Below, piece after piece: positions 2,986 to 63,347 of a stretch of DNA of 64,000 bases. The notes beneath the pieces were generated by a model. It was not told where the DNA came from. It saw only the letters and a program-made list of their open reading frames with translations, and ran no database searches. The DNA is from Terriglobia bacterium (lineage in GTDB: Bacteria > Acidobacteriota > Terriglobia > Acidiferrales > UBA7541): the NCBI GenBank assembly GCA_020072785.1, contig JAIQGG010000001.1:702581-766580 (forward strand), given 5' to 3'. A program made the position numbers and the translations under genes. The first letter of the stretch is position 1, and the number at the start of each line of letters is the position of its first letter.

Positions 2986-3006
2986 TCTTGCAGATTTCGT
3001 GCCAGA
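2986..3006 (-). promoter_or_regulatory. Sigma-54 (-24/-12) promoter for the PilZ gene
   Basis: Reading the minus strand, the -24 element CTGGCACG matches the sigma-54 consensus YTGGCACG at all eight positions and the -12 element CTGCA matches TTGCW at four of five. GG (3002-3003) and GC (2990-2991) are exactly ten bases apart. Expected transcription start is near 2978, giving a leader of about 60 bases to the TTG start. Sigma-54 activators are encoded at 4515 and 7189. Confidence 0.7.
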
Positions 3007-3269
3007 ATCGCGCTTCCGGAGTCATTTATAAACATTGTATTTTCAGTGCATTATCCTATGCCAAGCATCGGGAATGCTAGATGCATGATACTAACCACCC
3101 CGGGAACTGCATTTCCTTTCCCATATTGTGCAAATGGAACGTATTTACCATTGACGTTTGTTGCGGGCGTCTGCGACGATGTGCATCCAGAGACGGGAAA
3201 AGATTTACCACTTGAAGCGCAAAGCGCAAAAATCTCTGTTTTCGTGACGGTGAAGCGGTCAAGACTGCA

Positions 3270-4493
3270 ATGACCTCTCTCCCTACATTACCGGTTGAGC
3301 GTGTTTCGCAAGGCCTGCCGTTAGGCCTGGTCACATCGCTTCTGGATACGCTGGAGAAGCCCCTGCTGGTCATCGAGCGGAGCGGGCGCTTCGTGTTGGC
3401 GACCCTGCAGGCACGCCAATGCTTGGAAGCGCGGGGGATTGTGGATCTCGCGAGCAAGGATCTTTTTTCACAAATGCTGGGCATCGAACCCAAGGTAATT
3501 TTCGAGCAGTTCGAAAGCGGTGAGCGGGAAGTGAACCTGCATGTGGTAGGCGGGGGAAAAAAGGCCCGCGCGCGCATCCAGTGGCTGCCGGAGCCGGACT
3601 GGCTGCTCGTGCAGTTCGACCCGCAACCCGAAGCCGCGGAGGTGGAGGAAGGGTCCTCCGTGCTGACCATCCAGGACCTGCTGCAGGAACGCGAAGTGAC
3701 GTACCGCAACCTGCTGGCGGCCTATCTGCGGCTGCAGGATGTAAACCGGCAGAAAACGGTGTTCTTGGGTTCAGCGGCGCACGAATTGAAGACGCCCCTG
3801 GCAGTCATCAAGGGCTACTACGATCTGCTGCTCACCGGCTCTCTGGGGCGGCTGAACGACAAGCAGCGCGAGATTCTCGAGGAATCGAAAGAGAGCTGCG
3901 AGCGGCTGGTGCGGCTGGTTTCCATGTTCCTCAATTATTCCGCGCTGGAAAGCGGCCGGCTGGTGCTGCAGCTGCGGGAGAACGACCTGAAGGATTGTTT
4001 GGAAGAGCTGGGCAAGCGCTGGCAGGAAGCCTTTCAACGCAAGGGCGTGCGCCTGGAAACACAGATCGATTCCGCGCTGCCGGTGTTCCGCTTTGACTAT
4101 CAGAAGGTGCAACAGGCGGCGGGCAACTTGCTGGATAATGCGCTCAAGCACACGCCGCCGGGCGGCTGCGTTACGCTGCTGGCCGCGCCGCATTTCTGGG
4201 AAAGGCGTCTGGCGGCCAACAAGCCGCTTCAGGAGCGCCGCGGCGGGCGCGCGCCGCGGGCCAACAGCGTACAAGTTTCTGTCTCGGATACCGGGCCAGG
4301 GCTGGCCGCCGAATTTCATCAGGAAATATTCGAAGATTTCATGCGCGTGGATCGCAACACGTCGGGCATGGGCCTGGGTCTGGCCATCGCCAAACGGCTG
4401 GTGCAGGCGCATCGGGGAAAGATCTGGGTCGATAGTGAAGCACGGCAGGGCAGTACATTCACCTTTCTCCTGCCCATAGAGCAGGGCCAGTAG
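3270..4493 (+). CDS. Sensor histidine kinase
   Basis: Two-component kinase, 407 aa, that autophosphorylates on histidine and should phosphorylate the regulator encoded immediately downstream. Residues about 20-120 look like a PAS-type sensor region. A short coiled stretch leads to the HisKA dimerisation domain with H-box AHELKTPLAVIKGYYDLL (H171). The ATPase domain shows the N-box NLLDNALKHTPPGG, the G1 box DTGPGL and the G2 box GMGLGLAIAK. No transmembrane helix or signal peptide is visible, so it senses a cytoplasmic signal. It is 21 bases from the response regulator gene and surely co-transcribed. By position near an exosortase locus it is a candidate counterpart of PrsK, but it lacks that family's multi-helix N-terminus. 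Confidence 0.95.
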   Translation: MTSLPTLPVERVSQGLPLGLVTSLLDTLEKPLLVIERSGRFVLATLQARQCLEARGIVDLASKDLFSQMLGIEPKVIFEQFESGEREVNLHVVGGGKKARARIQWLPEPDWLLVQFDPQPEAAEVEEGSSVLTIQDLLQEREVTYRNLLAAYLRLQDVNRQKTVFLGSAAHELKTPLAVIKGYYDLLLTGSLGRLNDKQREILEESKESCERLVRLVSMFLNYSALESGRLVLQLRENDLKDCLEELGKRWQEAFQRKGVRLETQIDSALPVFRFDYQKVQQAAGNLLDNALKHTPPGGCVTLLAAPHFWERRLAANKPLQERRGGRAPRANSVQVSVSDTGPGLAAEFHQEIFEDFMRVDRNTSGMGLGLAIAKRLVQAHRGKIWVDSEARQGSTFTFLLPIEQGQ

Positions 4494-4514
4494 CGCGGTC
4501 CCGAGGGAGTAATT

Positions 4515-5966
4515 ATGAGCATAGCGGAAAGAATTCTGGTGGTGGACGACGAGCCGAGCATCCGCAAATACTTGCAGACGCTGCTCGAGGTGGACGGCTT
4601 CCATGTCGAGACGGTGTGCTCGGGCAGGGAAGCGCTCGAGAAAGTCAGCACGGGCGAACGGCCGGACTTCATCATTCTCGACGTGCTCATGCCCGAGATG
4701 AACGGGATCGAGACGCTCAAGGAACTGATGCAAGTGGACCGTTCCTTGAACGTTATCATGCTCTCCTGCTCCAACGAAGTGGGCACCGTCGTGGACGCGA
4801 TCCGCCTGGGAGCTCACGATTACCTGACCAAGCCCTTCGAAAAGGGCGAACTCGATGCGGCCATGCTCAAGTGCCGCAAGAAGAAGCAGCTGCACGAGGA
4901 GAACCAAGCGCTGCGCGAATATTGCGAACAGCTCACCGAGGACCTCAGCTTCCTGGCCGCCAGCCCGCAGATGGTGCGTATCCGCCAGCAGATCCTGCAG
5001 ATTGCTCCGGTGGACGTGCCAGTGTTCATCTGCGGGGAGAGTGGTGTCGGCAAGGAAGTGGTGGCGCGCATGATCCACCTGCGCTCCAAGCGGCGCAATC
5101 AGGCCTTCGTCAAAGTAAATTGCGCGGCGCTGCCGGGGGAGCTCCTGGAATCGGAACTGTTCGGCTATGAGCAGGGCGCGTTTACCGGAGCGGTGCGCGC
5201 CAAGCCCGGCAAGTTCGAGCTGGCCAACAAGGGCACCATCTTCCTCGACGAAATTGCGGAGATGAGCACGCACCTGCAGGCCAAGCTTCTGCACGTTCTG
5301 CAGGATCACCAGTATTCGCGGCTGGGCGGCCGTCAGGTGGTGGACATGGACGTGCGCGTTCTGGCCGCGACCAATGTGGACGTCCAAGAAGCCATGAAGG
5401 ACGGGCGCTTCCGCGAGGATCTCTATTACCGCCTCAACGTGCTGTCCATCAACGTGCCGCCGTTGCGCGAACGCCAGACGGAAATTCCCCTGCTCTTCCG
5501 CCACTTTCTCCAGAAATACGCCGAGAAATTCGGCAAGACCGCGATCGAGCCGTCGCACTATCTGCTGGAAGCGGCCGCGCGCTATCCGTGGCCGGGCAAT
5601 CTGCGGGAGCTGGAAAATTTCGTGAAACGTTACGTCATTCTCGATGATGAGGAAGGCAGCCTGCGCGAGCTGGTCGAGATGTCCACGGCGCGGCAGCGCA
5701 CCGCGCCGCGCGTGGAAGCACCGCCCCCCCGCGAGCAGGGGCTTAAGGCGCTGGTCCGGGGCTTGAAAGACGAAGCGGAGATGGAAGCGATTGCCAACGC
5801 CCTGGAAAAGACGCGCTGGTGCCGCAAGGATGCGGCGAAAATGCTGGGAATCAGTTACAAGGCATTGCTCTACAAGATGCGGCAATTCAATCTGGACACA
5901 CCGCGGAACCGTCGTGGCGCCGCGACGGAAGAGACACGGCGCGAGCCGGCGATTCGGAACGTCTAG
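4515..5966 (+). CDS. NtrC-family sigma-54 response regulator
   Basis: Transcription activator, 483 aa. The receiver domain (1-125) has acidic D11/D12, phosphoacceptor D56 and K106. The AAA+ domain (about 148-385) has Walker A GESGVGK (174-180), the sigma-54 contact loop GAFTGA (221-226) and Walker B FLDE (243-246). A Fis-type helix-turn-helix closes the protein (about 425-465; ALEKTRWCRKDAAKMLGISY). All elements for phosphorylation-triggered, ATP-driven opening of sigma-54 promoters are intact. It is paired with the upstream kinase. PrsR of the PEP-CTERM system is the closest known role (Zoogloea PrsK/PrsR/RpoN drives PEP-CTERM genes). I infer it controls at least some of the sigma-54 promoters in this window. 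Confidence 0.96.
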   Translation: MSIAERILVVDDEPSIRKYLQTLLEVDGFHVETVCSGREALEKVSTGERPDFIILDVLMPEMNGIETLKELMQVDRSLNVIMLSCSNEVGTVVDAIRLGAHDYLTKPFEKGELDAAMLKCRKKKQLHEENQALREYCEQLTEDLSFLAASPQMVRIRQQILQIAPVDVPVFICGESGVGKEVVARMIHLRSKRRNQAFVKVNCAALPGELLESELFGYEQGAFTGAVRAKPGKFELANKGTIFLDEIAEMSTHLQAKLLHVLQDHQYSRLGGRQVVDMDVRVLAATNVDVQEAMKDGRFREDLYYRLNVLSINVPPLRERQTEIPLLFRHFLQKYAEKFGKTAIEPSHYLLEAAARYPWPGNLRELENFVKRYVILDDEEGSLRELVEMSTARQRTAPRVEAPPPREQGLKALVRGLKDEAEMEAIANALEKTRWCRKDAAKMLGISYKALLYKMRQFNLDTPRNRRGAATEETRREPAIRNV

Positions 5967-6444
5967 CCTTCCCAGTCCGCCGGGTATTGCTCCTTTTAGG
6001 CACACGGCGACACTTTATTTCTTTCCAGCTCGCTTGGGATTACGCTACTGTTCCGTCCCGGTATGGGAAATTTGAGGGTGCCTGCTTGCAAGGAATTTCC
6101 CTTCGCTCGCCAGTAATCTTGCTTGGAGTTCCATGAAAAGAGATTGCGGCGCTGCTTGCGAAAGATAAACACCTTAAGAATTAGTGAGTTAAATTGGATG
6201 CGATACTTGAAAATTGGAAGATTGCGGAATTGGTCTGAAACGTGCACCTCTCTTTGTAAGTTTTGTGATCTGCGATCCATCCACGGTGACGCCGAAGGCA
6301 GGACCTTATAGTGCGGAAAGTGCACGACGCGAGAGACCGGGGGATAGGCCTCTCGTAGCAGAAGCAATTTGCCAAATGCGGGTAACGCTGATAGAACCTT
6401 CGGACAGCGGATGCCACGCTTAGAGGCGGGGGGATGGACTGGGG
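5967..6444. other. Intergenic region upstream of the second PilZ gene
   Basis: No credible coding frame in this 478-base, AT-richer stretch. The only pattern worth noting is a weak sigma-54 match at 6230-6248: TTGG and GTGCA with GG-N10-GC spacing, nine of thirteen consensus bases. It would give a leader of nearly 190 bases to the PilZ gene. I looked for a c-di-GMP riboswitch and could not find its conserved core. Confidence 0.5.
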
Positions 6445-6792
6445 ATGGGCCTGATGACTGAACGTCGTACGGCACGACGCTATGATTTGACTTTGCCGGT
6501 CGTCATACGCATTCCGACCGAGCGCAAGGCGGAGACGCAGCGCGGCAAAACGCGGGATATTTCCACGCGCGGCCTCTATTTCGTGATTGATCAGGACCTC
6601 CAAGCCGGTTCCGAACTCGACATTACGCTCACGCTCCCGGCTGAGGTTACCCAGGGCTCGGAAGTGCTTGTGCGCGCAATCGGGAAGGTCATCCGCGTCG
6701 AGCAACGTCTGGAAGACGGCAATACACGCATGGGCGTGGCGGCCGTGATCGAACGCTACGACATCATCCGCGGGGAAACTTCCAAGAACTGA
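6445..6792 (+). CDS. PilZ domain protein
   Basis: Single-domain c-di-GMP receptor, 115 aa. The RxxxR motif lies in TERRTARRYD (R7-R11 or R8-R12), and D38-x-S40-x-x-G43 in DISTRGLYF gives the second half of the ligand site. Beta strands with a VRAIGKVIRV segment complete the barrel. The start could be the ATG at 6445 or at 6454; both have G-rich sequence upstream. It is the third PilZ domain within 6 kb. It stands alone between the NtrC-type regulator and the orphan activator, and its partner cannot be deduced. Confidence 0.9.
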   Translation: MGLMTERRTARRYDLTLPVVIRIPTERKAETQRGKTRDISTRGLYFVIDQDLQAGSELDITLTLPAEVTQGSEVLVRAIGKVIRVEQRLEDGNTRMGVAAVIERYDIIRGETSKN

Positions 6793-6805
6793 ACTCCGTT
6801 TTATA

Positions 6806-6825
6806 GCCGGCAGCTCTCTGCTGGC
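6806..6825 (+). terminator. Hairpin after the PilZ gene
   Basis: GCCGGCAG-CTCT-CTGCTGGC forms an eight-pair stem including one G-U pair, 14 bases after the stop codon. The sequence that follows is CT-rich without a clean U-run, so termination is plausible but not certain. Confidence 0.4.
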
Positions 6826-7188
6826 GTCTGCAGTTCTCTCTTTGCTTCGAGACAACACAAGCAAGGGCTTCCCCTTTCTGCACACTTGCTGTTTGGGGAG
6901 TCCGCTCGATTTGGGGATATCTCAGGCCTTATCACGGGAATGGCCAGGCTGTCCTGGCAAGGGGAAAGAGAAAAAGCTTCCCAAATCAGGAGCAAATATT
7001 TTCTCTGCTGTACCCACAACTCGTTCAATTTTTCCGGGATTAGTACTGGGACCACCTTGTCCATTGCACCTGTAACATATAGATAATGCATTCGTTAGCC
7101 GATTACGGATCTTGTCTTCAGTTTTCGAACATGTCCCTCCGGTTGGCCGAATATGTGCATCTTCTCTGGATCAGGCAGATGCCTGTGT
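6826..7188. other. Intergenic region upstream of the orphan activator
   Basis: No gene recognised. At 7142-7161 TTGGC and GTGCA have GG-N10-GC spacing (GG 7145-7146, GC 7157-7158), nine of thirteen matches to the sigma-54 consensus. If real, the activator gene would be autoregulated and its start must be 7189, not the ATG at 7153 that lies inside the promoter. Confidence 0.4.
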
Positions 7189-8265
7189 ATGCCTACGGAA
7201 CCCACAACTAGAAGCTGCAGGGCGGAGCCGATCAGCCAGATCCCTCCGGATGAGGTCCTTTTTGGCTGTTCGGCGGCGATGGCCGAAGTACGGCAGCGCG
7301 CCGAAAAGATCTGCAATACCAATATCCCCGTGCTGCTCAATGGCGATGGCGGGACGGGCAAGGAAGCGCTGGCGCGGTGGATTCACGCGCGCTCTTCCTA
7401 CCGCAACGGTCAGTTCATCAAGGTCAACTGCGCGGCCATCCCCGGAACGCTGCTCGAGAGCGAGCTTTTCGGTTACGAGCGGGGCGCGTTCACCGGGGCG
7501 CAGGTCAGCAAGTGCGGGCGCGTAGAACTGGCGCATAACGGCACGCTATTTCTGGATGAGATCGCAGACCTGGATCTGAGTCTGCAAGGCAAGCTTCTGC
7601 ATTTTCTCCAGGACGGCAGGTTCACGCGAATCGGCGACAACGAAGAGAGAACCGTAGAGACGCGCATCTTGTGCGCGACGAACAAGGATCTGGAGCGGGA
7701 GATAGCCGCGGGCATATTCCGCGCCGATCTGTTCTACCGCATCAATGGGATGCGGTTGTGGTTGCCGCGGCTGCGCGAGCGCAAGGACGACATTCCGGCG
7801 CTTGCGAATTATCTCCGCGCATTTTACGAGAAACAGTTCGCCAAAGAATCCCCTCCGTTGAGTGCGGAATTTCTCGCCTATCTGCGGGAGTTGGATTGGC
7901 CGGGGAACGTGCGGGAATTGTCCAACGGAATGGCACGCTATGTCTTGATCGGTCCCGAAGAGGTGATTGCCGAAGAGCCGCCGCGCAAGCGCAGTTTGCG
8001 GATGTCCGGCGCGTCTTCCGAGGCTGCCCCTGTTCCGCTGAAGCACCTTGCGAGGGAAGCGACCCGGGAGATGGAGCGCAATATCATCCTGGAAACGCTG
8101 CAAGCCAACCGCTGGAATCGCCGGAAGACGGCGGAGGCGCTGCAAATCAGTTACCGCGCACTCATCTACAAGATCCGCGATGCCGGGTTGCTGGCGCGGA
8201 GCACGGAAGTCCTGGCGGACGTACCCGAAAAAAAATCTCCCGCTTCGCAGTCCTCCCGCGACTAA
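7189..8265 (+). CDS. Orphan sigma-54-dependent activator without receiver domain
   Basis: 358 aa. A short N-terminus leads directly into an AAA+ domain with Walker A GDGGTGKE (52-59), GAFTGA (99-104) and Walker B LFLDE (120-124). A Fis-type helix-turn-helix follows near the C-terminus (NRWNRRKTAEALQISYRAL). The sigma-54 contact loop is intact, so it should be competent for activation. With no receiver or other sensor it would resemble PspF, controlled by expression level or by a partner protein. The ATG at 7153 would add twelve residues of unlikely, Cys-rich composition, so I prefer 7189. Its target is most likely in the local polysaccharide/exosortase genes. A degenerate relative is encoded at 61188. 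Confidence 0.93.
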   Translation: MPTEPTTRSCRAEPISQIPPDEVLFGCSAAMAEVRQRAEKICNTNIPVLLNGDGGTGKEALARWIHARSSYRNGQFIKVNCAAIPGTLLESELFGYERGAFTGAQVSKCGRVELAHNGTLFLDEIADLDLSLQGKLLHFLQDGRFTRIGDNEERTVETRILCATNKDLEREIAAGIFRADLFYRINGMRLWLPRLRERKDDIPALANYLRAFYEKQFAKESPPLSAEFLAYLRELDWPGNVRELSNGMARYVLIGPEEVIAEEPPRKRSLRMSGASSEAAPVPLKHLAREATREMERNIILETLQANRWNRRKTAEALQISYRALIYKIRDAGLLARSTEVLADVPEKKSPASQSSRD

Positions 8266-8290: not shown

Positions 8291-8563
8291 CTCCCTCTTC
8301 GGCAACTCTCTCACGGCTGTCTTGCGCCATTTTTCTGCGTGAAAAGCCTTGCAAATGCGAACATCCGGGAGTTGCGGAAATTTTCCGAAGTTCAGGAAAA
8401 GCGCCGCGCGCCACGCATTGGAAAATCCTAAGAATTAGGCCGGTACAGCTTCCAGTTCATGCGGACAGGCAGTGTGGCTGTCCCTTAATTGGACGTCTCA
8501 CCAGTATTTTTCGCAGCTCGCGGTCCCTTACTCTGCTCACGGCGAGCAGTGGGAGGGAAAGCG

Positions 8564-10237
8564 ATGACGAACCGGGGGCGGTTCAGTCCTGAGAAACGGG
8601 ACAGAGATCTACGCGCTGGGAACACCCGTCAACTGCAAGGGCTCGCGCTACTGGGACTGGCTGTATTGCTGCCACTGGTGGTTCTGAGCGGTTGCGTCGG
8701 CGTGGCCGGCCAGGGGGTGAATCCAGCGGGGGGGCAGGCCGTGATTCAGGCCAGTCCTGCAACTGTAAATTTTGGAAATGTGACCGTGGGGACGAAAAGC
8801 AGTTTGCCAGTTACGCTGAGCAATACAGGCGGTAGCGACCTTACGATTTCGGTGCTCACGCTGAGCGGCGCGTCCTTCAGCGTCTCGGGAATTGCGGCGC
8901 CCAAGACCATTTCTGCCGGGCAGTCGGCCACGATGAACGTGACCTACGCGCCATCGAGTGCGGGGAGCAACTCCGGGTCCATTGTGATCACCAGCAATGA
9001 TTCGAAGTCTCCTGCGACAATTGCGCTTTCGGGAACGGCAACGACCGCGTCTGTGGGGCAACTTACGCTGAGCCCGGCCAGCCTGAATTTCGGGAACGTG
9101 AACGTGGGCGGCAGCAGCACGCTCACCTCGACATTGACCAATTCCGGGCAGGCTGCCGCCAACATTTCGCAGGTGAACGTTACGGGGACCGGTTTTACGG
9201 TAAGCGGCCTGACAGTTCCGGCGACTTTGAATCCGGGGAATTCCGTGACGTTGCAGGTGAAGTACGCGCCGGGGTCGGCAGGAGCGGCGAGCGGCAGCGT
9301 GTCCATCATCAGCGATGCACAGGGCTCGCCGACGACCCTCGCGCTATCCGGCACCGGCCTGCAGCCCGGGCTGAGTCTGTTGCCGGCGAGCATCAGTTTT
9401 GGCAATGTCGTCGTGGGCATGATCAATTCCCAGACGGTAAAGATCACGAACAGCGGGAACGCCAGTCTGACGATTTCCCAGGCCACCCTGACGGGCAGTG
9501 GTTTCAGCACCAGCGGGCTGACCACGCCGCTCACGCTGGCGGCAGGACAGGCCAGCACGTTTACGGTGCTGTTCGCACCGGCGGCGGCAGGCAGCGTGAG
9601 CGGAAGCCTTGCGCTGACCAGCAACGCGCCGAACTCTCCGGCTTCGATTCCGCTGAGCGGCAGCGGCGTTGCCGCCACCTATACGCTATCGGTCAGTCCG
9701 ACCAGCTTGAGCTTCGGCAACGTCAACACGGGCAGCTCGGCTTCGCAGAGCGTCAGCATCGCGAACACCGGGAACTCGAACGTGACCATTTCGCAGATCA
9801 GCGTGTCCGGCGCAGGCTTTTCTGCAACCGGCGTGGGCGTCCCGGTTACGCTTTCGCCGTCGCAGAAGGTAACGCTGACCATACAATTCAGCCCGTCCGT
9901 GGCCGGAAGCGTAAGCGGGACGATCTCCGTGGTGAGCAATGCCAGCGGATCGCCGGCGGTGATTTCCGCGAGCGGAACGGGTGTGACTCCGACGGTGGCC
10001 CATTCCGTGGCCCTGACGTGGAATGCCAGCAGCTCGACGATCTCCGGCTATAACGTGTACCGCAGCACGGTGAGCGGAAGTTCTTACGCCAAGGTCAGCT
10101 CGACGCTAGTCACCGGATTGACCTACACGGATGGGACCGTTCAGAGCGCCCTGACCTACTACTATGTGACGACGGCGGTAGATGCCAGCGGCAACGAGAG
10201 CGCCTATTCCAACGAAGCACAGGCCGTCATTCCGTAG
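8564..10237 (+). CDS. HYDIN-repeat (choice-of-anchor D) lipoprotein with Fn3 domain
   Basis: Exported surface protein, 557 aa. The start at 8564 follows a strong GGGAGG site. A membrane stretch (about 24-42) ends in the lipobox LSGC (C44), so it should be a lipoprotein. Four tandem immunoglobulin-like ASPM/SPD-2/HYDIN repeats of about 100 residues follow, each starting with an SFGNV-type motif and ending in LSGTG. A fibronectin type III domain (SVALTWNASSSTISGYNVYR) closes the protein. Such proteins are typical of Acidobacteriota cell surfaces; their ligands are unknown. A shorter paralogue with two repeats and the same Fn3 end is encoded in opposite orientation at 18902, so the pair faces inward around the rhamnose/exosortase block. 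Probable role: adhesion or matrix scaffold. Confidence 0.9.
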   Translation: MTNRGRFSPEKRDRDLRAGNTRQLQGLALLGLAVLLPLVVLSGCVGVAGQGVNPAGGQAVIQASPATVNFGNVTVGTKSSLPVTLSNTGGSDLTISVLTLSGASFSVSGIAAPKTISAGQSATMNVTYAPSSAGSNSGSIVITSNDSKSPATIALSGTATTASVGQLTLSPASLNFGNVNVGGSSTLTSTLTNSGQAAANISQVNVTGTGFTVSGLTVPATLNPGNSVTLQVKYAPGSAGAASGSVSIISDAQGSPTTLALSGTGLQPGLSLLPASISFGNVVVGMINSQTVKITNSGNASLTISQATLTGSGFSTSGLTTPLTLAAGQASTFTVLFAPAAAGSVSGSLALTSNAPNSPASIPLSGSGVAATYTLSVSPTSLSFGNVNTGSSASQSVSIANTGNSNVTISQISVSGAGFSATGVGVPVTLSPSQKVTLTIQFSPSVAGSVSGTISVVSNASGSPAVISASGTGVTPTVAHSVALTWNASSSTISGYNVYRSTVSGSSYAKVSSTLVTGLTYTDGTVQSALTYYYVTTAVDASGNESAYSNEAQAVIP

Positions 10238-14677: not shown

Positions 14678-15181
14678 ATGCCTCAGGAAGAGTGCTACGC
14701 AAACTTTTCCTCTTCAAAATACTGAGAGATGCAATTTTGCACCCTGAAACCAAGGAATTGCCAGCTCGTTCTCAAAACAGACGTATATAACAGATAATAA
14801 AGGCATTAAATGCTGGTCACCGGACTTTCTGCCATGATTCAGGGAGGCTTTGGAATTCTAGATACCGATCAAATGCCAGGAAAAGGCAAATTCAATGGAC
14901 AATGTGGATAGAATAGTTCCACTTCATGGCCGGATTATAGCTGCAGGATAGGCAAGAATTTGACTATGCCGATCACGTTTGCGCCGATTACTTCATGATA
15001 ATAAAAGACATGGATTGATTTTCAGAGTCTAGGCAAGCTTTGCTTTCTTGGCAAGGCCCGTGCTTTAGTCTCTCTCGTAGCGACCTGTGTCTCGGTAGTA
15101 GAATGTCCAGAGGCACTGGAAGCGGGAATTCATCCCGCTCTTTGAAGAGCGGCGTTCGGGAAGGGCAGGAGCGAGGTAACG
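14678..15181. other. Divergent intergenic region, prsT-like and wzz-like genes
   Basis: AT-rich 504-base region between divergent operons with no coding frame. It holds the sigma-54 candidate at 15047. A small dyad GTGGA-N9-TCCAC (14904-14922) lies about 130 bases upstream of it, a usual activator-site distance. On the minus strand a perfect TTGCA -12 element (14731) has a poor -24 partner, so I do not call it a promoter. Confidence 0.5.
15047..15066 (+). promoter_or_regulatory. Sigma-54 promoter candidate for the wzz/tyrosine-kinase operon
   Basis: TTGGCAAG (seven of eight consensus bases) and GTGCT (four of five) have exact GG-N10-GC spacing, GG at 15050-15051 and GC at 15062-15063. Predicted start near 15075 leaves a leader of about 105 bases to the ATG at 15182. 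Confidence 0.55.
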
Positions 15182-16693
15182 ATGGTCCGGAACGGCGAAA
15201 TCAGCATTGGCGATGCGAAGAGGGTCCTCCGGGGCTACTGGTGGATTTTGCCTATCACCTCCGTGGGCTGCGCGGTTCTTGCGCTGGCGGCCGCGCTGAT
15301 GCTGCCGAAGCGCTATACCTCGGGGACGATGGTCCTGGTCGAACAACCGACAGTGTCGTCAGATTATGTGAAACCCGTGGTTACCGAAGACCTCAATCAT
15401 CGTCTGGCATCGATGAAGGAACAGATTCTCAGCCGCACACGTCTAGAGCCGATTATCGAAAAGTTCGATCTGTATGCCGTGGACCGCGACCGTGTGCACA
15501 TGGACGATCTTGTGGAGCGCTTGCGCTCAGCGGTGACGATTCCCCCGATGGAGCCTATGCCAGGAACGCAGAACCGCCAATTGCCGGGTTTCTACGTCAA
15601 CGTCACCTTTGATAATCCCCAGATCGCGCAACAGATTTGCACGGAAATCACCTCGATGTTTCTGGAGCAGAACTCCCGGGAGCGCGAACAGCAGGCTTCG
15701 CGGACCACTTCCTTCCTCAGCCGGCAATTGGACGAAGCCAAGGCCAAGCTGGACGCACAGGATGCCAAGCTGGCCCAGTTCAAGCGGCAATATCTGGGCT
15801 CGCTTCCTGACGAAGAACAGACCAATCTCAGCCTACTCCTGGGAATGAACTCCCAACTCGAAGCCAACACCCAGGCGTTGAGCCGGGCACAACAGGACAA
15901 GGTCTTCAATGAGTCCTTGCTTGGTCAGCAGGAAGCTATCTGGAAGGCCGCGCAGTCCGGACAGAGTCCAGAGACGACCGAACAGCAGCTCAACGCGCTG
16001 CAGGAACAGCTGACCGCTCTGCAGGCACGCTACACGCCGGAGCATCCGGATGTCATCAAGATCCAAAGCCAGATCGATGAATTGAAGAAGCGCATGGCCC
16101 AGACTCCCAAGACGAAAGATGTGGAGAATAAGGCCGCGCAGCTAGCCCCCAGCGAGCCGCCCCAGCTGCAGCAACTCCGCGCCAAACGGCGGCAGGATGA
16201 ATTGAACATCGCCGATCTCACCCGCCGGCAGGGACAGATCCAGGAGCAGATCCGCATCCTGCAGGGACGCGTGCAGGCCAGCCCGATGGTGGAGCAGCAG
16301 TATAAGGAATTGACGCGGAACTATCAGAGCGCACTGGATTTCTACAATGATCTTCTGAAAAAGCGTGAACAATCCGCAATGGCCACGGATCTCGAACACC
16401 AGCAGGAGAGCGAGCAATTTCGCGTGTACGATCCGCCCAGCCTGCCGGATAAACCTTCCTTTCCGAAGAAGACCTATTTTGCGGGTGGCGGGTTGGGGGC
16501 GGGGCTAGCCCTGGGGTTGGGCATCCTGTTCGTAATCGCGGTGAGCGACAAGGCGATGTATACCGGGCAGGATGTGGAGCTCTGCTTGAAGGTTCCGGTT
16601 CTCGCGCTGGTTCCGAGATTGGAGACAGCTTCTGCCCCGGGAGGCATAACCGGAACGGTCGGAAGTACCTATCCGGCGGGCAAGAAGATCTGA
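15182..16693 (+). CDS. Wzz/GumC-type polysaccharide chain length determinant
   Basis: Inner-membrane co-polymerase that sets polymer length and couples to export, 503 aa. There are two transmembrane segments, about residues 22-40 (WWILPITSVGCAVLALAAAL) and 418-440 (glycine-rich, PKKTYFAGGGLGAGLALGLG). A long periplasmic coiled-coil (about 170-400) lies between them. The proline-rich motif before the second segment (PPSLPDKPSFP) is typical of the Wzz family. It matches the exosortase-associated chain-length protein group (TIGR03007). A GGAG-type site precedes the ATG. The tyrosine kinase follows 36 bases downstream as a separate protein, the arrangement of Wzc split into two genes. Confidence 0.93.
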   Translation: MVRNGEISIGDAKRVLRGYWWILPITSVGCAVLALAAALMLPKRYTSGTMVLVEQPTVSSDYVKPVVTEDLNHRLASMKEQILSRTRLEPIIEKFDLYAVDRDRVHMDDLVERLRSAVTIPPMEPMPGTQNRQLPGFYVNVTFDNPQIAQQICTEITSMFLEQNSREREQQASRTTSFLSRQLDEAKAKLDAQDAKLAQFKRQYLGSLPDEEQTNLSLLLGMNSQLEANTQALSRAQQDKVFNESLLGQQEAIWKAAQSGQSPETTEQQLNALQEQLTALQARYTPEHPDVIKIQSQIDELKKRMAQTPKTKDVENKAAQLAPSEPPQLQQLRAKRRQDELNIADLTRRQGQIQEQIRILQGRVQASPMVEQQYKELTRNYQSALDFYNDLLKKREQSAMATDLEHQQESEQFRVYDPPSLPDKPSFPKKTYFAGGGLGAGLALGLGILFVIAVSDKAMYTGQDVELCLKVPVLALVPRLETASAPGGITGTVGSTYPAGKKI

Positions 16694-16729
16694 ACGGGAC
16701 ATGCAGGGGAGCAGTTCTTTGAGGAAACG

Positions 16730-20008: not shown

Positions 20009-20403
20009 TTTCGGGCAGGAAAAATAGCGTCTTCAGATGGCTTGTGCGCTCCCGAAAAGCATACTGATTGGGTGAGATTCTAGATCAGATACATGATGGA
20101 TTTTCAATCTGCAAAAATGACAAAATAGGCTATTTTTCTCCTCTTTACGAGGCCGGGAATTGTCAATAAACTCTTATAATTCTGTTATTTACGACAAATT
20201 CTTTGCGACAAAAGCAAAAGAATTGCCTCTCCCCAGGAATCTGTTTACAACAATCGGGCAGGTGTTTTCTCTAGTTTCCGGATATGTCTAAAAGTCGAGG
20301 CTAGCAGCCATTTTCTTAGTTGACCATTGTTGCTGTAATGCAATGTAAATAAAAGACTTAACCATGGACATGAAAATTGTTCAAAATTGGGACGAGTCTT
20401 TGG

Positions 20404-20472: not shown

Positions 20473-20518
20473 ATCAAGAGCAATTAGGTCCATTGCAGTG
20501 CATTCCTGGAGAGGCCCC

Positions 20519-46984: not shown

Positions 46985-47160
46985 AAGCTAGGGGAGGCAC
47001 CCCCGCCGTAAATGTGACGAAGCATTCAGATGCCGAAAACCAGTGCTCTAGGAAGAAGTTCACATCCTTAGTATGAGAAGAAGTTTGGCATTTCCATGTC
47101 CTATGCCGGGAGTATCGAAAGCCATCTACGAGATAATATGAGCCTTACAAGTTACATGGA

Positions 47161-47180
47161 AGTGGTACTTGCCTTGCATT
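47161..47180 (+). promoter_or_regulatory. Sigma-54 promoter candidate for the deacetylase-like gene
   Basis: TGGTAC and a perfect TTGCA are spaced GG-N10-GC (GG 47164-47165, GC 47176-47177), ten of thirteen consensus bases. The predicted start lies about 17 bases before the ATG at 47206, leaving little room for a ribosome site; none is evident. Confidence 0.4.
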
Positions 47181-47205
47181 CATAAAGCTATCCGCTAGGT
47201 AGGCT

Positions 47206-48561: not shown

Positions 48562-48812
48562 CAGGTACCGAGGAAATGGATGTAGCGGCGTCCTTTGTTG
48601 CGGCATGCCGAGGCCAAAGCCCGCGACGAATCCGCGATCACTGTTCTAAACTCGCGCGCGCGTTTTCACCTTTTCTCCGCAGATTATTCGAGCCCGCATG
48701 AGCTTCCTTTTAAGATTCCTTCCGAGTAATGATTCGGCACAGAACAGATATCTCGCGAGAGTTCTTTGTTTGTAGTTGTTAAGATAGATCCAAATACAAC
48801 CACGGAGGCACG

Positions 48813-50306: not shown

Positions 50307-50341
50307 CGAGAACCCCGCTTGTGCGGGCGGACAAATAAGTT

Positions 50342-50986
50342 ATGCGCCTTTCTCTTTTCGTCCGGAAATTCCAGAGAAACGTGGAAGACTATGGCTGGCC
50401 GGTTACTCTCAGAAAGAGTCTGGGTTACCTCTTCCAGACATTTTATGCCCATCAGGTTTACCGCATCTATCGAATCGACCTCACGGAGCCGCGCCCTTCT
50501 GCGCTGTGCGATGAACAGGGCCTGTCTTTTAGGATTCTCGATCCGGACGATCATCAGGCCATCTCGCAGATTGAGAAGGTTCACGAATGGCTTCAGGGCG
50601 GATTGAAAGAAAGCATCCGGGCCGGCGCCTTGTGCCTGGTGGCCCTGCAGGGCGAGAAGGTGGCGGGGTTTAACTTGATTGGGTTCGGCGAAGTGTTTAT
50701 GCCACTGGTCAATAAGAAGCGGACCTTTCGCAAGGGTGATGCCTGGTCCGAACAGATTGCGGTGATGAAAGACTTCCGGCAATTGGGTCTCGGTTCTCAG
50801 CTCCGCTACAGGATTTTTGAGGAGCTTGGCAGCCGGGGGGTCAAGCGCCTTTATGGCGGCGCTCTCACTTCCAACGTCGGCTCGCTCAAATTGGCAAGAA
50901 AAGTGGGCTTCCGGGAAATCATCGATATTCATTACTTCCGAATACTGGGACGTGACATTTGGCGGTATAAGAAGGTGCAGCAGTGA
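50342..50986 (+). CDS. GNAT N-acetyltransferase
   Basis: 214 aa. The acetyl-CoA binding region reads WSEQIAVMKDFRQLGLGSQLRYRIFEEL (V-x-x-x-x-R-x-x-G-x-G), followed by GALTSNVGSLKLARKVGF, the usual last GNAT strand and helix. The first 70 residues form a separate N-terminal region of unknown role. It overlaps the next gene by four bases (GTGA), so the two are translated together. Substrate unknown. Confidence 0.87.
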   Translation: MRLSLFVRKFQRNVEDYGWPVTLRKSLGYLFQTFYAHQVYRIYRIDLTEPRPSALCDEQGLSFRILDPDDHQAISQIEKVHEWLQGGLKESIRAGALCLVALQGEKVAGFNLIGFGEVFMPLVNKKRTFRKGDAWSEQIAVMKDFRQLGLGSQLRYRIFEELGSRGVKRLYGGALTSNVGSLKLARKVGFREIIDIHYFRILGRDIWRYKKVQQ

Positions 50987-52431
50987 GCTTTCTGGAGCAC
51001 TTCAATGATTTCGTTGTCGGAAACATTACCTTTCCTTTGACGAACTACACGCTGAACAGAAGGGGGGTCCTGCGTCATTTCCACGAATTGAAAAAGTCCG
51101 AACGCTACCCGCAAGAACAATTGCAGGAGATGCAGCTCAGAAAGTTTAGAGAGCTGGTAAGGTATGCGGGTAAGCAGTGCCCATTCTACGCTGCCCGGTT
51201 CAAGGCAGCCGGGCTCCTGCCGGACGATATCAGGACACTGGAAGACGTCAAGAAGATCCCTCCCCTGACCCGCAAAGATGTGATGGATCACTGCCGCGAG
51301 CTTCTGGACACTCGCTACTGGCCCTCCATCCCCTTCGCGGATCGATCCACGCGAGGCCCCGGCCAGCCGGCGTCGTTTGCAAGGTTTCGCAAGCACAAGC
51401 TTGTGAAGAATACTTCGTCGGGTTCCACCGGTGCCCCAGTCACCTTTTACGAGGATGGAGCGATCACGGGCCGGAATTGGGCTTTGGAACTGAGATTGAA
51501 GGATTGGTTTGGCCATAAGCCCGGCGTGCGGGAGGCACGACTGGTCAGGATTTCAACGGATTACCTTCCAAACAGCAAGACCCTGTCGGCGAGAAAGCGC
51601 CTTTGGCACCAGTTGATTCTACCCGGGGTGAATCTGACGAATCCGGATTACGCGCTCTCCGTCGAGAAAATCAAGGAATTTCGGCCCAAGGTTCTCTGGG
51701 GATTCACTTCCGCGTTGACCGGGTTGGCCGATTACATTCGGCGGTCGAACCAAGACATGGCCTCTTGGCGCCCGGAACTTGCCATATCCTGGGCCGCTCC
51801 CCTCTACGAGCATGAAAAGGCTCTTCTCTCCAGCGTCTTTCATTGCGCGCAGACGAATATCTATGGCAGCCGCGAGGTGGGGCACATCGCTTTTTTCTGC
51901 CCCGAGGGCAGCTTGCACATCAACCAGGAAGATCTCCTCGTCGAGAGTCAACGGGATAACGGGGAAAGCGCCCCTGAACACCCCGGAGAAATTATCGTTA
52001 CTACTCTCGATAGATCCCCCATGCCTTTCATCCGCTATCGGATGGGCGATATCGGCGAGGTGGCCCCCGGGAATTGCGCCTGTGGCCGGTCCTTGCTGGT
52101 CATCAAGAACTTCCTGGGACGAACCGGCGAAGTCTTTTACACCAGGGACGGCCGCATGATTTCCCCGAATTTCTGGATGCGCACGTTCATGGTTGGACGC
52201 CAAAGCCAGACGATCGAAAGATGGCAGGTCGTTTATCGCAAGGATCGCAGCATTCATTTGCGAATCGTGCCGCGTCCGAATTTCACCCCGGAGACAGAGG
52301 CCGATATCCGGCGCCATCTGGAAAAAAACCTTTCGACAGCAACACCCGTCGATTTTGAATATGTTTCAAAGATCGAAAAGCATTCCTCCGGGAAAGAGAT
52401 GCTGATTATTAACGAAAGCAATCAACCTTAG
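50983..52431 (+). CDS. CapK/phenylacetate-CoA ligase-like adenylating enzyme
   Basis: 482 aa adenylate-forming enzyme. The ATP loop is TSSGSTGAPVTFYED, and IYGSREVGHIAFFCPEG plus PGEIIVTTLDRSPMPFIRYRMGDIG are the other signature motifs. The family includes capsule protein CapK and PaaK. It activates a carboxylic acid, presumably for transfer to the glycan by neighbouring GNAT/FemAB proteins. It lacks a phosphopantetheine carrier domain, so CoA or direct transfer is implied. GTG start overlapping the preceding stop. Confidence 0.9.
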   Translation: MSFLEHFNDFVVGNITFPLTNYTLNRRGVLRHFHELKKSERYPQEQLQEMQLRKFRELVRYAGKQCPFYAARFKAAGLLPDDIRTLEDVKKIPPLTRKDVMDHCRELLDTRYWPSIPFADRSTRGPGQPASFARFRKHKLVKNTSSGSTGAPVTFYEDGAITGRNWALELRLKDWFGHKPGVREARLVRISTDYLPNSKTLSARKRLWHQLILPGVNLTNPDYALSVEKIKEFRPKVLWGFTSALTGLADYIRRSNQDMASWRPELAISWAAPLYEHEKALLSSVFHCAQTNIYGSREVGHIAFFCPEGSLHINQEDLLVESQRDNGESAPEHPGEIIVTTLDRSPMPFIRYRMGDIGEVAPGNCACGRSLLVIKNFLGRTGEVFYTRDGRMISPNFWMRTFMVGRQSQTIERWQVVYRKDRSIHLRIVPRPNFTPETEADIRRHLEKNLSTATPVDFEYVSKIEKHSSGKEMLIINESNQP

Positions 52432-52441
52432 GGGACACCCG

Positions 52442-53467
52442 ATGCGCGTGGATATTCTCGAGGAAAGCAGGAAGGCGGATTGGGATCGCTTTGTCGACAC
52501 GAACCCAAACGTGATTGCCTGGCATAGCTACTATTATTCATCCGTGCTCAAGAAGATGTATAACCTGCCCTTTTATCCGCTTGCCGCGTATGACGGCTCT
52601 GCGCTCTGCGGGATCTTGCCCCTGTACCTCAGTGATACCTTTCGCCGCGGCAGAATCCTGATGTCCGTTCCCTATTTCGTGGCCGGGGGCATTGTGGCCA
52701 TGAACCAAGAGGCGGAGCAGTTGCTGCTCAAGAGGGCGATCGAATTGGGAAAGGAAACCAGCGCCGCCCACATCGCCCTGCGGCAATACAAGATCAAAAT
52801 CCAGGGCGAACTTTTGACCGATGACAGCTATTACAATCGCGAGCTGGCGCTTACCGAAGACCTCGCCCAGATCTGGAAGAGCATCAGCGATACGAACAGA
52901 TCCAAGGTGGAGGAAGCGAAGAAACACAGCACGGTCCTGGAATATCCTTCCTCGGATCTCGACACCTTTTACAAACTTCTCCTCCACGACCAGCATGGAC
53001 AGGGCCTGCCCTGCGTCAGCCGGCGCTGGGTCGAGCTTCTCCTCGGAACCGGAACCTATCAAATCGCTCTCTTGAGGCAACAAGGGACCCTGGTTGCGGC
53101 CACTCTGGCGAAGTGCTTCAAAGACACGGTTTCCTTCCCCCTGACCTGCCTGCCCAGGCATGACGAGCAAGGCGAGCTCTTTGCCTATGATCTTTACTGG
53201 AAGCTGATTACGAATCTGGCGGGCGAGGGAGTTCACATCTTTCATTCCGGGCGGATTCCACAGGGGGATGTGGCTCCCTCTTACCGTCTGGGCTGGGGCG
53301 GCACAAAATGTACCTACTACTATCAATCCCCCGGTGTCGCTAAGTCCCAGGCGCAGCAGACAAACACGCGCGGGGCGAAGAGGTCCCTGTTCGAATCAGT
53401 ATGGAAGAAAACTCCTCTGAGTCTGGCAAAAACGCTCGGCCCTGTGATCGTCAAGCAGTTCCCGTAG
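52442..53467 (+). CDS. FemAB-like acyltransferase
   Basis: 341 aa. N-terminal SRKADWDRFVDTNPNVIAWHSYYYSSVLKKMY and the C-terminal GEGVHIFHSGRIPQGDVAPSYRLGWGG match the FemAB-related double-GNAT proteins of exosortase clusters. It follows the ligase gene by ten bases and closes the plus-strand polysaccharide cluster. Probable partner of the ligase in decorating the polymer. Confidence 0.83.
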   Translation: MRVDILEESRKADWDRFVDTNPNVIAWHSYYYSSVLKKMYNLPFYPLAAYDGSALCGILPLYLSDTFRRGRILMSVPYFVAGGIVAMNQEAEQLLLKRAIELGKETSAAHIALRQYKIKIQGELLTDDSYYNRELALTEDLAQIWKSISDTNRSKVEEAKKHSTVLEYPSSDLDTFYKLLLHDQHGQGLPCVSRRWVELLLGTGTYQIALLRQQGTLVAATLAKCFKDTVSFPLTCLPRHDEQGELFAYDLYWKLITNLAGEGVHIFHSGRIPQGDVAPSYRLGWGGTKCTYYYQSPGVAKSQAQQTNTRGAKRSLFESVWKKTPLSLAKTLGPVIVKQFP

Positions 53468-53479
53468 ACCGGCCGGAGG

Positions 53480-53923
53480 CTAGGGTGCCGGGTCCGTTAC
53501 TGCTGCCAGCGGGTTGGGCTCATCCGGCTGCACGCGGATGGCGACTCGCCTGCCCATCAGGGTTTGCCGGATGATCCGCGGTGTGACACTCAGAACCATC
53601 TTGAACGGATGAGTCTTCCAGTAAGCCCGGTACACGCGCCAGACTTCGCGCTTTTCTTCGAGAATCGTGGCCGTTCCGGCAATCACCGGACCTTCGGCGC
53701 TCCCGAGATGGCAGAGCACGCGCGGATTGCGGCGCACGCGCGCTACTTTGTGCGTATCCGACGGTGTGATGAATTCAATGCAGCCGGCGGTTACAATGGA
53801 CCACACCTCCGTCGTCCTCAGTTCGCCGGAGGCCTTGTACGAGCCGAACCAGACCATGTATTGCTTTAGGGCGCGTTCGATATCGGGTGTCATGACGGAC
53901 GGGTTCACGAAGATGAACGCCAT
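53480..53923 (-). CDS. Pyridoxamine 5'-phosphate oxidase-like flavin protein
   Basis: 147 aa split-barrel protein. TTEVWSIVTAGCIEFITPSDTHKVARVRRNPRVLCHLG is the typical flavin/F420-type core, where an amino-acid strand is followed by the K-x-x-x-[LI]-x-x-NP motif. The substrate is unknown; family members reduce or oxidise small molecules with FMN or F420. Convergent with the FemAB gene, with only 12 bases between the stop codons. Not evidently part of the polysaccharide pathway. Start could also be the later ATG (residue 11, MTPDIERAL). Confidence 0.82.
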   Translation of the reverse strand: MAFIFVNPSVMTPDIERALKQYMVWFGSYKASGELRTTEVWSIVTAGCIEFITPSDTHKVARVRRNPRVLCHLGSAEGPVIAGTATILEEKREVWRVYRAYWKTHPFKMVLSVTPRIIRQTLMGRRVAIRVQPDEPNPLAAVTDPAP

Positions 53924-55740: not shown

Positions 55741-55978
55741 AGGTGATTCCCTCTTGCGGGTCTAAACGCAGTGTTGTATCTAAGTTATTTAAATACAGGT
55801 AGATACAGAAGCTTCCAGCTTCTGGACCGGATTCATTGTGGCGAGACAATTGCTCCCTTCCGGGCTGTTAACGTTCGCGCTGGCCTCTTCTGAAATTTTG
55901 CTTCTAGGCCATCTGTTCGCGAATAGACTATTTTGATTCCGTAAGATTCGTGGTATTCGCTAGTCATAGGAGACACCC
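55741..55978. other. Upstream region of rfbA
   Basis: No gene. It holds a perfect hairpin CAGAAGC-TTCCA-GCTTCTG (55806-55824) just ahead of the sigma-54 candidate at 55837. The hairpin ends 16 bases before the -24 GG, too close for a normal activator site. A GGAG site at about 55969 serves rfbA. Confidence 0.5.
55837..55856 (+). promoter_or_regulatory. Sigma-54 promoter candidate for rfbAB
   Basis: TGGC and a perfect TTGCT with exact GG-N10-GC spacing (GG 55840-55841, GC 55852-55853), ten of thirteen consensus bases. The leader to the rfbA ATG would be about 115 bases. Confidence 0.5.
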
Positions 55979-61187: not shown

Positions 61188-62141
61188 TTACTCGTCGCTC
61201 GTTGTGCCCTGCACGCCGATCAGCTTGATTTTGTAGAGCAGCGATTTGTAGCTGATCTGCAGTTCCTGCGCTGCTCGCTTGCGGTTCCAGTGCGTGCGCT
61301 CCAGCGCCTGCAGAATCAACTCCCGCTCCGCCCGCCGCGAAGCCTCCCGCGAGGCCGCTTTCAAGGAAAACAGGGGCGCCCCGTCGTTCGTTTTGCCGGC
61401 CTTCCGGGGAGCTGTGCGCAGATCGTCCAGCGCCACGCCGGCATCTCCGATGGCCACGATCTTCTTCGCCACATTTTCGATCTCGCGGATGTTCCCCGGC
61501 CAATCGTGGGCGGTCAGTAATTCCAGTGCCTCCGGGCCCAGGACTGGCGGGTCGCGCTTCAATTCGCCGGAGTATTTAGTCAGAAAATACTGTACCAGCG
61601 CCGGAATATCCTCTTTCCGCTCGCGCACCGGCGGCAGCCGCAGGTGCACCCCATTGATCCGGAAATACAACTCCCTCCGAAAACGCCCCTTCTCGATCTC
61701 CTCTTCCAGATTCCGCGAGGTGGTGGAAATCACGCGTGCCGTCACCTCGTTCTCGCCACTCTTCTCCGCGCCATCGGGGAGCAGAGAAAGCAGCAGGCGC
61801 TGGCAGGCCGGATCCAGTTCCTCCACGCCGTCCAGGAGCAGTGTCCCGCCCTCCGGAGCGCCATTCACGAGCTGTGTTCCTTCCTGAATTTGCCGCAGCA
61901 AACGCCCCGGCTCCAGAGTCGCGCAGTTCAGTTTTCTCAGCGGCCTTTGCCCAGCGCCAGAGAGCCGGTGAATCAGTCGGGCATAGACCTCTTTGCCCGT
62001 GCCGCTCTCTCCTTGCAGCAGAACGGGGATTTCCGTACGCGCAATCACGGCAACCACGGCATTCAGGGCTTGCATGGCGGCACTCTGGCCGTAAACCATA
62101 TCGGCCAGCGGTTCGAGAATGTGGCTCGTTGGTGTGCTCAT
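61188..62141 (-). CDS. Degenerate sigma-54 activator homologue lacking GAFTGA
   Basis: 317 aa AAA+ protein with a Fis-type helix-turn-helix (HWNRKRAAQELQISYKSLLYK). Walker A is intact (GESGTGKE, 44-51) and the RFRRELYFRIN arginine-finger helix and WPGNIREIEN are kept. The segment that should carry GAFTGA (about 82-97: LRQIQEGTQLVNGAPEG) is about eleven residues shorter and has no trace of it. Walker B ends LLLDG instead of LFLDE. It should bind DNA and ATP but not open sigma-54 promoters. I choose the ATG at 62141; GTG 62201 adds 20 residues. Upstream of the Wza-like, barrel and ATPase genes on the same strand, so probably regulates this block. Confidence 0.88.
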   Translation of the reverse strand: MSTPTSHILEPLADMVYGQSAAMQALNAVVAVIARTEIPVLLQGESGTGKEVYARLIHRLSGAGQRPLRKLNCATLEPGRLLRQIQEGTQLVNGAPEGGTLLLDGVEELDPACQRLLLSLLPDGAEKSGENEVTARVISTTSRNLEEEIEKGRFRRELYFRINGVHLRLPPVRERKEDIPALVQYFLTKYSGELKRDPPVLGPEALELLTAHDWPGNIREIENVAKKIVAIGDAGVALDDLRTAPRKAGKTNDGAPLFSLKAASREASRRAERELILQALERTHWNRKRAAQELQISYKSLLYKIKLIGVQGTTSDE

Positions 62142-62570
62142 GCGTCTCTGGCTAGCATCTTCCCCCGGTCCTTGGACCAGCTCAGCCGATGCTCTGGACA
62201 CGCTACCGGCAAAGGTAGGGGAGCAAGTTCGCTACCAGAGAACAAAGATATGGATACTCTGCAATCTGCCACTAACTAATTGCAAATAAATAAGTTAACA
62301 TTTCCTGATCCTCTCCCAGTCAATTTCCGGATGTTACTGGAGTCCCCATTTTCTTCCACCAAGTGGCAAACTATTTACCCTACCCATCGCTGCTACGCTG
62401 CCTTTCTCGATATCAGATTCTCGCTATCCAAATATCTTGCAGAAAATAAATGGCTTAGGCAAATTCTTAAGAACATGCCACTGGTCATTCTTGCAATTGA
62501 CTGAGGGACCACACAAGACGTTCTATGCCTGACAGACCCTTGAAGGGAACAGGTCGGAGGAATTGGAGCC
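62142..62570. other. AT-rich region between the degenerate activator and PEP-CTERM terminator
   Basis: About 430 bases, AT-rich, without a credible coding frame. No sigma-54 site with correct spacing was found in either direction, although fragments of TTGCA and GTGGCA occur. The promoter of the export operon must lie here or in the activator gene. Confidence 0.5.
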
Positions 62571-62607: not shown

Positions 62608-62652
62608 CTTGAAAGTCATGGTGCGGTGTGCTAAATCGCTTATTTCGTTGGT

Positions 62653-63276
62653 CTAGAGACGCAAACGCGCAAGACCTGCCAGGGCCAGCAACCCAGCGCC
62701 AAGCAGGGTCAACGAAGCGGGCTCAGGAACCGCGGTCGTCTGGGAGACGATGAGGCCATCGAAACTCCCGTTGGCGTTCGGACCGTACTCCGCCCCAATG
62801 TGAACGCTGCCATCGGCAGCGATCAATGAGGGGTCGATTGCATCGAAGGTCCAAGTCCAAGTGTAGACCCCATTCTGCGCGATAAGGAGTGAGGTCAAGG
62901 GTGACGCCGAAGCGCAGACAAAAGCTCCGGAATTAACACCGCAAGTCCCGCCAGAACTCAAACTGCCAGTAGTGGCTGTCCAACCGGTCGAAGGAAAGGC
63001 CGTCAGAGACAACCCAGTGATGTTTCCGCTGGATGTGAAGCCGAGGTCCACGGCCGTGATGTAATCGTTGGATGACGTCGGCACCCCGTTGATTGTAATG
63101 GTCAGGCTCGCCGAGGTGGTCGTTATGTCAAAGGCATACGTCGCACCCGGACAGTTCCCGCCACCGCCACAATCCGTCAAGATCAAGGTACCTACTGTAT
63201 CCGCCATGGCCGGCGCTGTGCAAAAGAGGACCATAATAGTGAGGCCCAGTACTGCCAAGACCTTCCGAATCATCAT
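62653..63276 (-). CDS. PEP-CTERM sorting-signal protein (exosortase substrate)
   Basis: 207 aa secreted protein. Residues 1-25 are a signal peptide (cleavage after AMA). The mature domain is rich in Ser/Thr/Gly with C-x-x-G-G-G-G-N-C, and no catalytic motif is seen. The tail is a textbook PEP-CTERM signal: VPEPASLTLLGAGLLALAGLARLRL minus its first residues, that is a PEP motif, a hydrophobic helix and a basic end. A GGGGGAT site precedes two ATGs (63271-63276). The exosortase at 17807 is the evident enzyme. The promoter is a sigma-54 candidate with a dyad further upstream. Likely a surface or matrix protein. Confidence 0.93.
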   Translation of the reverse strand: MMIRKVLAVLGLTIMVLFCTAPAMADTVGTLILTDCGGGGNCPGATYAFDITTTSASLTITINGVPTSSNDYITAVDLGFTSSGNITGLSLTAFPSTGWTATTGSLSSGGTCGVNSGAFVCASASPLTSLLIAQNGVYTWTWTFDAIDPSLIAADGSVHIGAEYGPNANGSFDGLIVSQTTAVPEPASLTLLGAGLLALAGLARLRL

Positions 63277-63328
63277 ACGATCCCCCTGCTTCTATCTGAA
63301 CGTACACCAAGATATGCGAACGTAATTA

Positions 63329-63347
63329 CTGCAATCAGTGGGCCATC
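63329..63347 (-). promoter_or_regulatory. Sigma-54 promoter candidate for the PEP-CTERM gene
   Basis: Minus strand: TGGCCC and a perfect TTGCA with exact GG-N10-GC spacing (CC 63343-63344, GC 63331-63332), ten of thirteen consensus bases. The predicted start lies about 43 bases before the ATG. Sigma-54 with PrsK/PrsR is the known control mode for PEP-CTERM genes in Zoogloea. Confidence 0.6.

Follow-up and report, generated by a model that had tools for sequence, protein, structure and literature searches.

Predicted sigma-54 promoters upstream of PilZ, polysaccharide and PEP-CTERM genes suggest a shared local regulon in a Terriglobia bacterium

The DNA considered here (the window) is a stretch of 64,000 nucleotides at the end of a contig in the metagenome-assembled genome of a Terriglobia bacterium (Acidobacteriota), and its intergenic regions carry a series of putative sigma-54 promoters. 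These precede genes for a PilZ protein, a polysaccharide chain length determinant (wzz), an UpxY-type antiterminator, an activator-like protein that we call EBP3 (for enhancer-binding protein) and a PEP-CTERM protein, with two further sites upstream of gene 47206–48561 and of rfbA. The sites and the main genes behind them are:

2601–2918, minus strand: single-domain PilZ protein, TTG start (PF07238, 38.9 bits, cut-off 22.5; RRRAER and NISGTG read directly)
2989–3005, minus strand: predicted sigma-54 promoter of PilZ, CTGGCACGAAATCTGCA, matrix score 18.0
15048–15064, plus strand: predicted sigma-54 promoter of wzz, TTGGCAAGGCCCGTGCT, score 14.5
15182–17638, plus strand: XrtA-type chain length determinant (wzz) and tyrosine autokinase (TIGR03007 just below, TIGR03018 below their cut-offs)
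20406–20422, plus strand: predicted sigma-54 promoter of UpxY, CTGGCAGATGAATTGCC, GG-N10-GC, 10/13
20498–21115, plus strand: UpxY/RfaH-family antiterminator (NF033644, 114.3 bits, cut-off 100)
47162–47178, plus strand: predicted sigma-54 site before gene 47206–48561, GTGGTACTTGCCTTGCA, score 11.6
55838–55854, plus strand: sigma-54-like site before rfbA, score 12.2
62222–62238, minus strand: predicted sigma-54 promoter of EBP3, CTGGTAGCGAACTTGCT, score 11.0
62653–63276, minus strand: PEP-CTERM protein (PF07589, 22.1 bits, cut-off 20.7)
63330–63346, minus strand: predicted sigma-54 promoter of the PEP-CTERM gene, ATGGCCCACTGATTGCA, score 13.1

The matrix used for scoring is an approximate one, written from the published consensus and not fitted to the host organism, and sites were counted against YTGGCACGN4TTGCW over its 13 positions. 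Scoring of intergenic DNA against shuffled controls had been proposed as one test of the original prediction, and it gave an enrichment: the 8.8 kb of intergenic DNA in the window holds seven matches of at least 11, against a mean of 1.26 in 200 dinucleotide-preserving shuffles, none of which reached seven, and five matches of at least 12 against 0.69. All seven of the matches at 11 or above are aimed at the next gene. The six GG-N10-GC sites that had been predicted were found with exact spacing, their consensus counts (12/13, 11/13 and 10/13) were right for the three rechecked (PilZ, wzz and UpxY), and the predicted chance expectation of 0.2–0.3, which applies to the strict eight-base form, compares with three intergenic occurrences of that form; what had been missed was the seventh site, at 62222–62238 on the minus strand, and the histidine kinase and NtrC-type regulator that stand beside PilZ. 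Over the whole genome, coding DNA included, the strict consensus shows no enrichment (76 occurrences against 107 for the reversed pattern), as expected because the pattern is weak. The genome has one rpoN gene (PF04552, 192.1 bits) and 19 sigma-54 activators.

That the sites are chance matches in AT-richer intergenic DNA has some footing, in that low-scoring 10/13 sites do arise by chance (about 1.3 are expected in the window), and it is here that the orthologs are informative. Among upstream regions of at most 250 bp from fetched relatives, window included, which are mutually related so that the fractions are not independent trials, a site scoring at least 11 was present in 81% of 21 for PilZ (1.6% when shuffled), in 6/7 for UpxY (0.86), in 9/16 for EBP3 (0.56, against 1.8% shuffled), in 4 of 20 for wzz (0.20), and in a fraction of 0.1–0.2 for each of the genes labelled EBP2, Xrt, Exp and PGT; the controls gave 0 (kinase, TyrK, OMP and AT) and 0.05 (ATPase), and shuffled ortholog regions 1–4%. 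The wzz site is found in all of the closest orthologs at -129 to -134, that of gene 47206 keeps its place (-44 to -47) in its two nearest orthologs (loci L193 and L199) and is absent in most others, and the PEP-CTERM site has equivalently placed counterparts in L157 (12.0) and, weakly, in L214 (9.1). Within the genome, each of the three PEP-CTERM genes has a site (scores 15.1, 12.6 and 13.1), and among the 28 examined genus-wide, 12 reach a score of 10, 11 reach 11 and 10 reach 12, the corresponding controls being 2.1%, 0.9% and 0.4% in shuffled sequence, with antisense-strand counts of 2, 1 and 1.

The conservation in relatives that had been proposed was thus borne out for PilZ, UpxY, EBP3 and PEP-CTERM and, among the closest relatives, for wzz and 47206; it failed for rfbA, whose site has no counterpart in the four rmlA orthologs compared (their gene context differs), and there chance may still hold, the site being probably a chance match. 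For the sites at large, position-conserved counterparts in many genomes (PilZ, UpxY, EBP3) and the genus-wide sites before PEP-CTERM genes argue against chance, which we regard as a highly improbable explanation. Judged from sequence, five of the sites (PilZ, wzz, UpxY, EBP3 and PEP-CTERM) are very probably true sigma-54 promoters, and that before 47206 is probably one.

Further upstream of five of these promoters lie elements that resemble upstream activator sites (UAS), with distances given from the element to the -24 position of the promoter:

3127–3154, minus strand: UAS-like element of PilZ, TCAATGGTAAATACGTTCCATTTGCACA, 138 bp
14905–14924, plus strand: UAS-like element of wzz, TGGATAGAATAGTTCCACTT, found by motif search and conserved in 9 genomes, 135 bp
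20254–20273, minus strand: weak candidate UAS of UpxY, TAGAGAAAACACCTGCCCGA, 144 bp
62354–62373, minus strand: UAS-like element of EBP3, TAGTTTGCCACTTGGTGGAA, found by motif search and recovered from 16 genomes, 127 bp
63463–63482, plus strand: candidate UAS of the PEP-CTERM gene, second best window match of the EBP3 UAS matrix, 128 bp

The distances for PilZ, wzz and EBP3 are measured from the centres of the elements. Conservation is strong at PilZ (where TCAATGG is invariant in 30/30 orthologs), wzz and EBP3; the PEP-CTERM and UpxY candidates are weaker, and at UpxY similar elements were seen by eye 131–144 bp from -24 in relatives, with low matrix scores. The wzz UAS matrix gives a mean of 10.3 on EBP3 upstream regions and 9.3 on those of PilZ, with most controls at 1–6, and TTTGC[AG]CA is common to the upstream regions of PilZ (17/21) and of sigma-54-type PEP-CTERM genes (5/19, 0.11 expected). 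By these comparisons, the UAS elements are related, not identical.

The proteins that might act at such elements are encoded at both ends of the region:

3270–4493, plus strand: histidine kinase (HisKA and HATPase_c), divergent from PilZ
4515–5966, plus strand: NtrC-type response regulator, EBP1 (Response_reg, Sigma54_activat and HTH_8; GAFTGA present)
7153–8265, plus strand: receiver-less sigma-54 activator, EBP2 (GAFTGA present)
61188–62201, minus strand: activator-like protein without the GAFTGA loop, EBP3 (aligned start near 62141)

Where two intact activators had been claimed, the window holds three activator-type proteins, and the claim stands for EBP1 and EBP2, each with a GAFTGA-bearing AAA+ domain and a Fis-type helix-turn-helix, and not for 61188–62201. 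All three share the recognition helix ISY[KR][AS]L[LI]YK[IM], which none of the other activators with a readable helix showed. This bears on whether the promoters, if sigma-54-dependent, answer to different activators, as neighbouring switches and no single local regulon. PilZ, wzz, EBP3 and UpxY do have UAS of different classes, each matrix peaking on its own gene, and with 19 activators in the genome there would be no shortage of candidates; on the other side stand the shared half-sites TTCCAYTT and TTTGCRCA, the near-identical spacing, the UAS cross-scores above controls and the recognition helix that EBP1, EBP2 and EBP3 share. We consider separate activators rather unlikely and a shared local regulon likely from the sequences compared. 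Control of all the promoters by one activator is also likely, and it is something that we infer, because the UAS elements fall into related, non-identical classes.

EBP3 is the unusual member of this trio. The segment ESELFGY..GAFTGA is missing in all 14 aligned ortholog rows listed, and the Walker B glutamate is replaced by glycine, reading DG in the window genome and several others of the genus. Contact with sigma-54 is not expected of a protein without the loop, and EBP3 is therefore unlikely to be a normal sigma-54 activator. One of two readings would make it a decoy or brake that acts by competition. The other, that EBP3 acts positively at sigma-70-type promoters rather than damping the sigma-54 set, has a precedent in the NtrC of Rhodobacter and Caulobacter, GAFTGA-less members of the family that are reported to act at sigma-70 promoters (PMC10274813). 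Those proteins resemble EBP3 in being activator-type AAA+ proteins without the sigma-54-contacting loop, whereas EBP3 also lacks a receiver domain and has as neighbours two intact activators whose recognition helix is similar. The sigma-54 site and UAS of the EBP3 gene itself, and the match between its helix and those of the intact local activators, tell against the sigma-70 role, neither of them decisively; we give the sigma-70 role a real chance, somewhat short of even.

The interpretation that we favour, and hold to be probable, is that these are true sigma-54 promoters at which the local enhancer-binding proteins would co-activate the PilZ, polymer and PEP-CTERM genes, with EBP3 damping the response. 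Its basis is the sites, their enrichment and conservation, the spacing, the gene content, the missing loop and the shared recognition helix; from these we infer transcription from the sites, the pairing of activators with UAS elements, the role of EBP3, the antitermination step and the signal. The most likely proteins to bind the palindromic sites about 130 bp upstream are EBP2 and EBP1, the latter after phosphorylation by the kinase encoded next to it; they would switch on, in concert, PilZ (a predicted receptor for cyclic di-GMP, c-di-GMP), Wzz and its tyrosine kinase (chain-length control), the RfaH-like antiterminator, and PEP-CTERM surface proteins both in this locus and elsewhere in the genome. 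The leader of the antiterminator gene has an ops-like site where the protein may load, so that polymerase would be carried through the long polysaccharide operon. EBP3, with its near-identical recognition helix, no GAFTGA loop and a Walker B motif degenerate in the genus, would occupy similar sites, fail to activate sigma-54 and so damp the system, its own promoter included.

Several observations weigh against this interpretation. Sites are missing in places: 16 of the 28 PEP-CTERM genes examined in the genus have none of at least 10, several EBP3 orthologs yielded no site, distant wzz orthologs have lost theirs, and in one genus (g4) PilZ has lost the -24 GG. Several activators may be involved, as the UAS elements do not form a single motif; the window has one copy of the 28-base PilZ UAS, and the helix comparison was made with a regular expression that left some activators unread. 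The sigma-54 set that had been proposed to link PilZ, polymer and PEP-CTERM genes is well supported by the enrichment, the ortholog conservation and the UAS-like elements, with rfbA dropping out as a conserved site.

The ops-like element lies between the sigma-54 site and the antiterminator gene:

20462–20470, plus strand: ops-like element GGCGGTAGC in the UpxY leader

We take GGCGGTAGC to be the core of the RfaH ops element. The UpxY leaders of six relatives contain it or a one-base variant (GGCGATAGC in L141 and TAGCGGTAGC in L146). As in the RfaH/UpxY systems with ops, an antiterminator gene heads the polysaccharide operon and the ops-like sequence is in the leader; the difference is that here a predicted sigma-54 promoter drives that leader. 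The same sequence also occurs elsewhere in related loci, on the minus strand at 14847 in L130, 5558 in L134 and 13422 in L136, at least one of these being upstream of a sugar gene.

The closest known counterpart is the Prs system of PrsK, PrsR and PrsT, whose sigma-54 motif 2 was found in Proteobacteria only (Haft 2006, PMC1569441). Common to both are sigma-54 sites before PEP-CTERM genes in or beside an exopolysaccharide locus, a PrsT-like tetratricopeptide repeat protein (here TIGR02917 at 319.7 bits, above the cut-off of 312.2) and upstream activator sites. The locus described here differs in belonging to Acidobacteriota, in a UAS-to-promoter distance of about 130 bp and not a spacer of about 63 nt, and in including the PilZ, wzz and UpxY promoters. 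PrsK and PrsR had been put forward as the controllers; among the window's regulators, the NtrC-type EBP1 scores 375.7 bits with TIGR02915 (PrsR), below the cut-off of 502.6, and PrsR is rejected as the local controller because of this, and for the histidine kinase at 3270–4493 the best 25 families do not include TIGR02916 (PrsK). Other cases for comparison are DVUA0057 in Desulfovibrio vulgaris (PMC3333781) and pepA with RpoN1 in Aquincola, where the exopolysaccharide genes are seemingly not RpoN1-dependent (PMC9850573). In Burkholderia cenocepacia, BerB/RpoN/BerA likewise join c-di-GMP to biofilm exopolysaccharide through sigma-54 and an enhancer-binding protein (PMC5552954); in the window, the gene of the putative c-di-GMP receptor is itself a predicted target, and PEP-CTERM genes are in the set.

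The literature found on PEP-CTERM and sigma-54 concerns Proteobacteria and Desulfovibrio, and no paper joining Acidobacteria, PEP-CTERM and exosortase was found in a search outside which most subscription literature lay, which makes it weak evidence of novelty. We suggest only tentatively a sigma-54 circuit specific to an Acidobacteriota lineage and independent of PrsR, in which a c-di-GMP receptor, polymer synthesis through an ops-loading antiterminator and PEP-CTERM sorting would be switched on together, with a loop-less activator as a same-site brake. The link between PEP-CTERM and sigma-54, defined in Proteobacteria, would then extend, under different regulators and with a broader range of targets, to uncultured soil Acidobacteriota, bacteria whose matrix biology has received little attention. 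The promoters, enhancer-like sites and three activator-type proteins of the set are named and open to direct testing, and the conserved loop-less EBP3 is an example of a paralog that might brake a sigma-54 circuit.

Around PilZ, two further features were noted:

1046–2356, minus strand: diguanylate cyclase, GGDEF motif intact, PilZ-like C-terminus by eye (TIGR00254, E 2e-44)
2961–2981, minus strand: GTACTA-N8-GTAC box, between the -12 element and the PilZ start

The PilZ protein has both RxxxR and NxSxxG and is a predicted c-di-GMP receptor; a class-level search found close relatives in its own family only, and its closest named match, at 93%, comes from a Terriglobia bacterium (Acidobacteriota). 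Two overlapping open reading frames (ORFs), 2384–2644 and 2488–2934, were considered as the PilZ gene and gave no family match, 2601–2918 being correct. The order GGDEF, PilZ, kinase, regulator is repeated across the family, and EBP1 is 77–95% identical in the relatives compared. Orthologs of the diguanylate cyclase have upstream sigma-54 sites of at least 11 in 7/21 (0.33), the window copy having none. The GTACTA box is kept in 30/30 PilZ ortholog upstream regions, those that lost the -24 GG included, with a spacing of 6 and not 8 in three. A 744-aa ORF at 3771–6005 proved to be on the wrong strand, the opposite-strand Pfam matches being the kinase and regulator, and the translation of the possibly coding ORF 6181–6885, which has no family match, is found again in most relatives, placed between the regulator and EBP2.

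Haft's motif 1 is 17 nt long, ends in TTTACA and lies about 63 nt before motif 2 (PMC1569441). In a k-mer count over 58 predicted promoters from the window and relatives, AACTTAC/ACTTACA is enriched 20–100 bp upstream of -24 (11 against 0.6 shuffled) and is possibly a site for a bending protein or that motif 1. In or beside the polysaccharide operon, 45914–53923 encodes two FemAB-like proteins, a DUF362 protein, a CoA-ligase-like protein and an F420-type oxidoreductase. Choice-of-anchor-D/ASH-domain proteins, at 8489–10237 on the plus strand and 18902–19930 on the minus strand, flank the rml-PrsT-wzz-exosortase region, an arrangement that is repeated in relatives.
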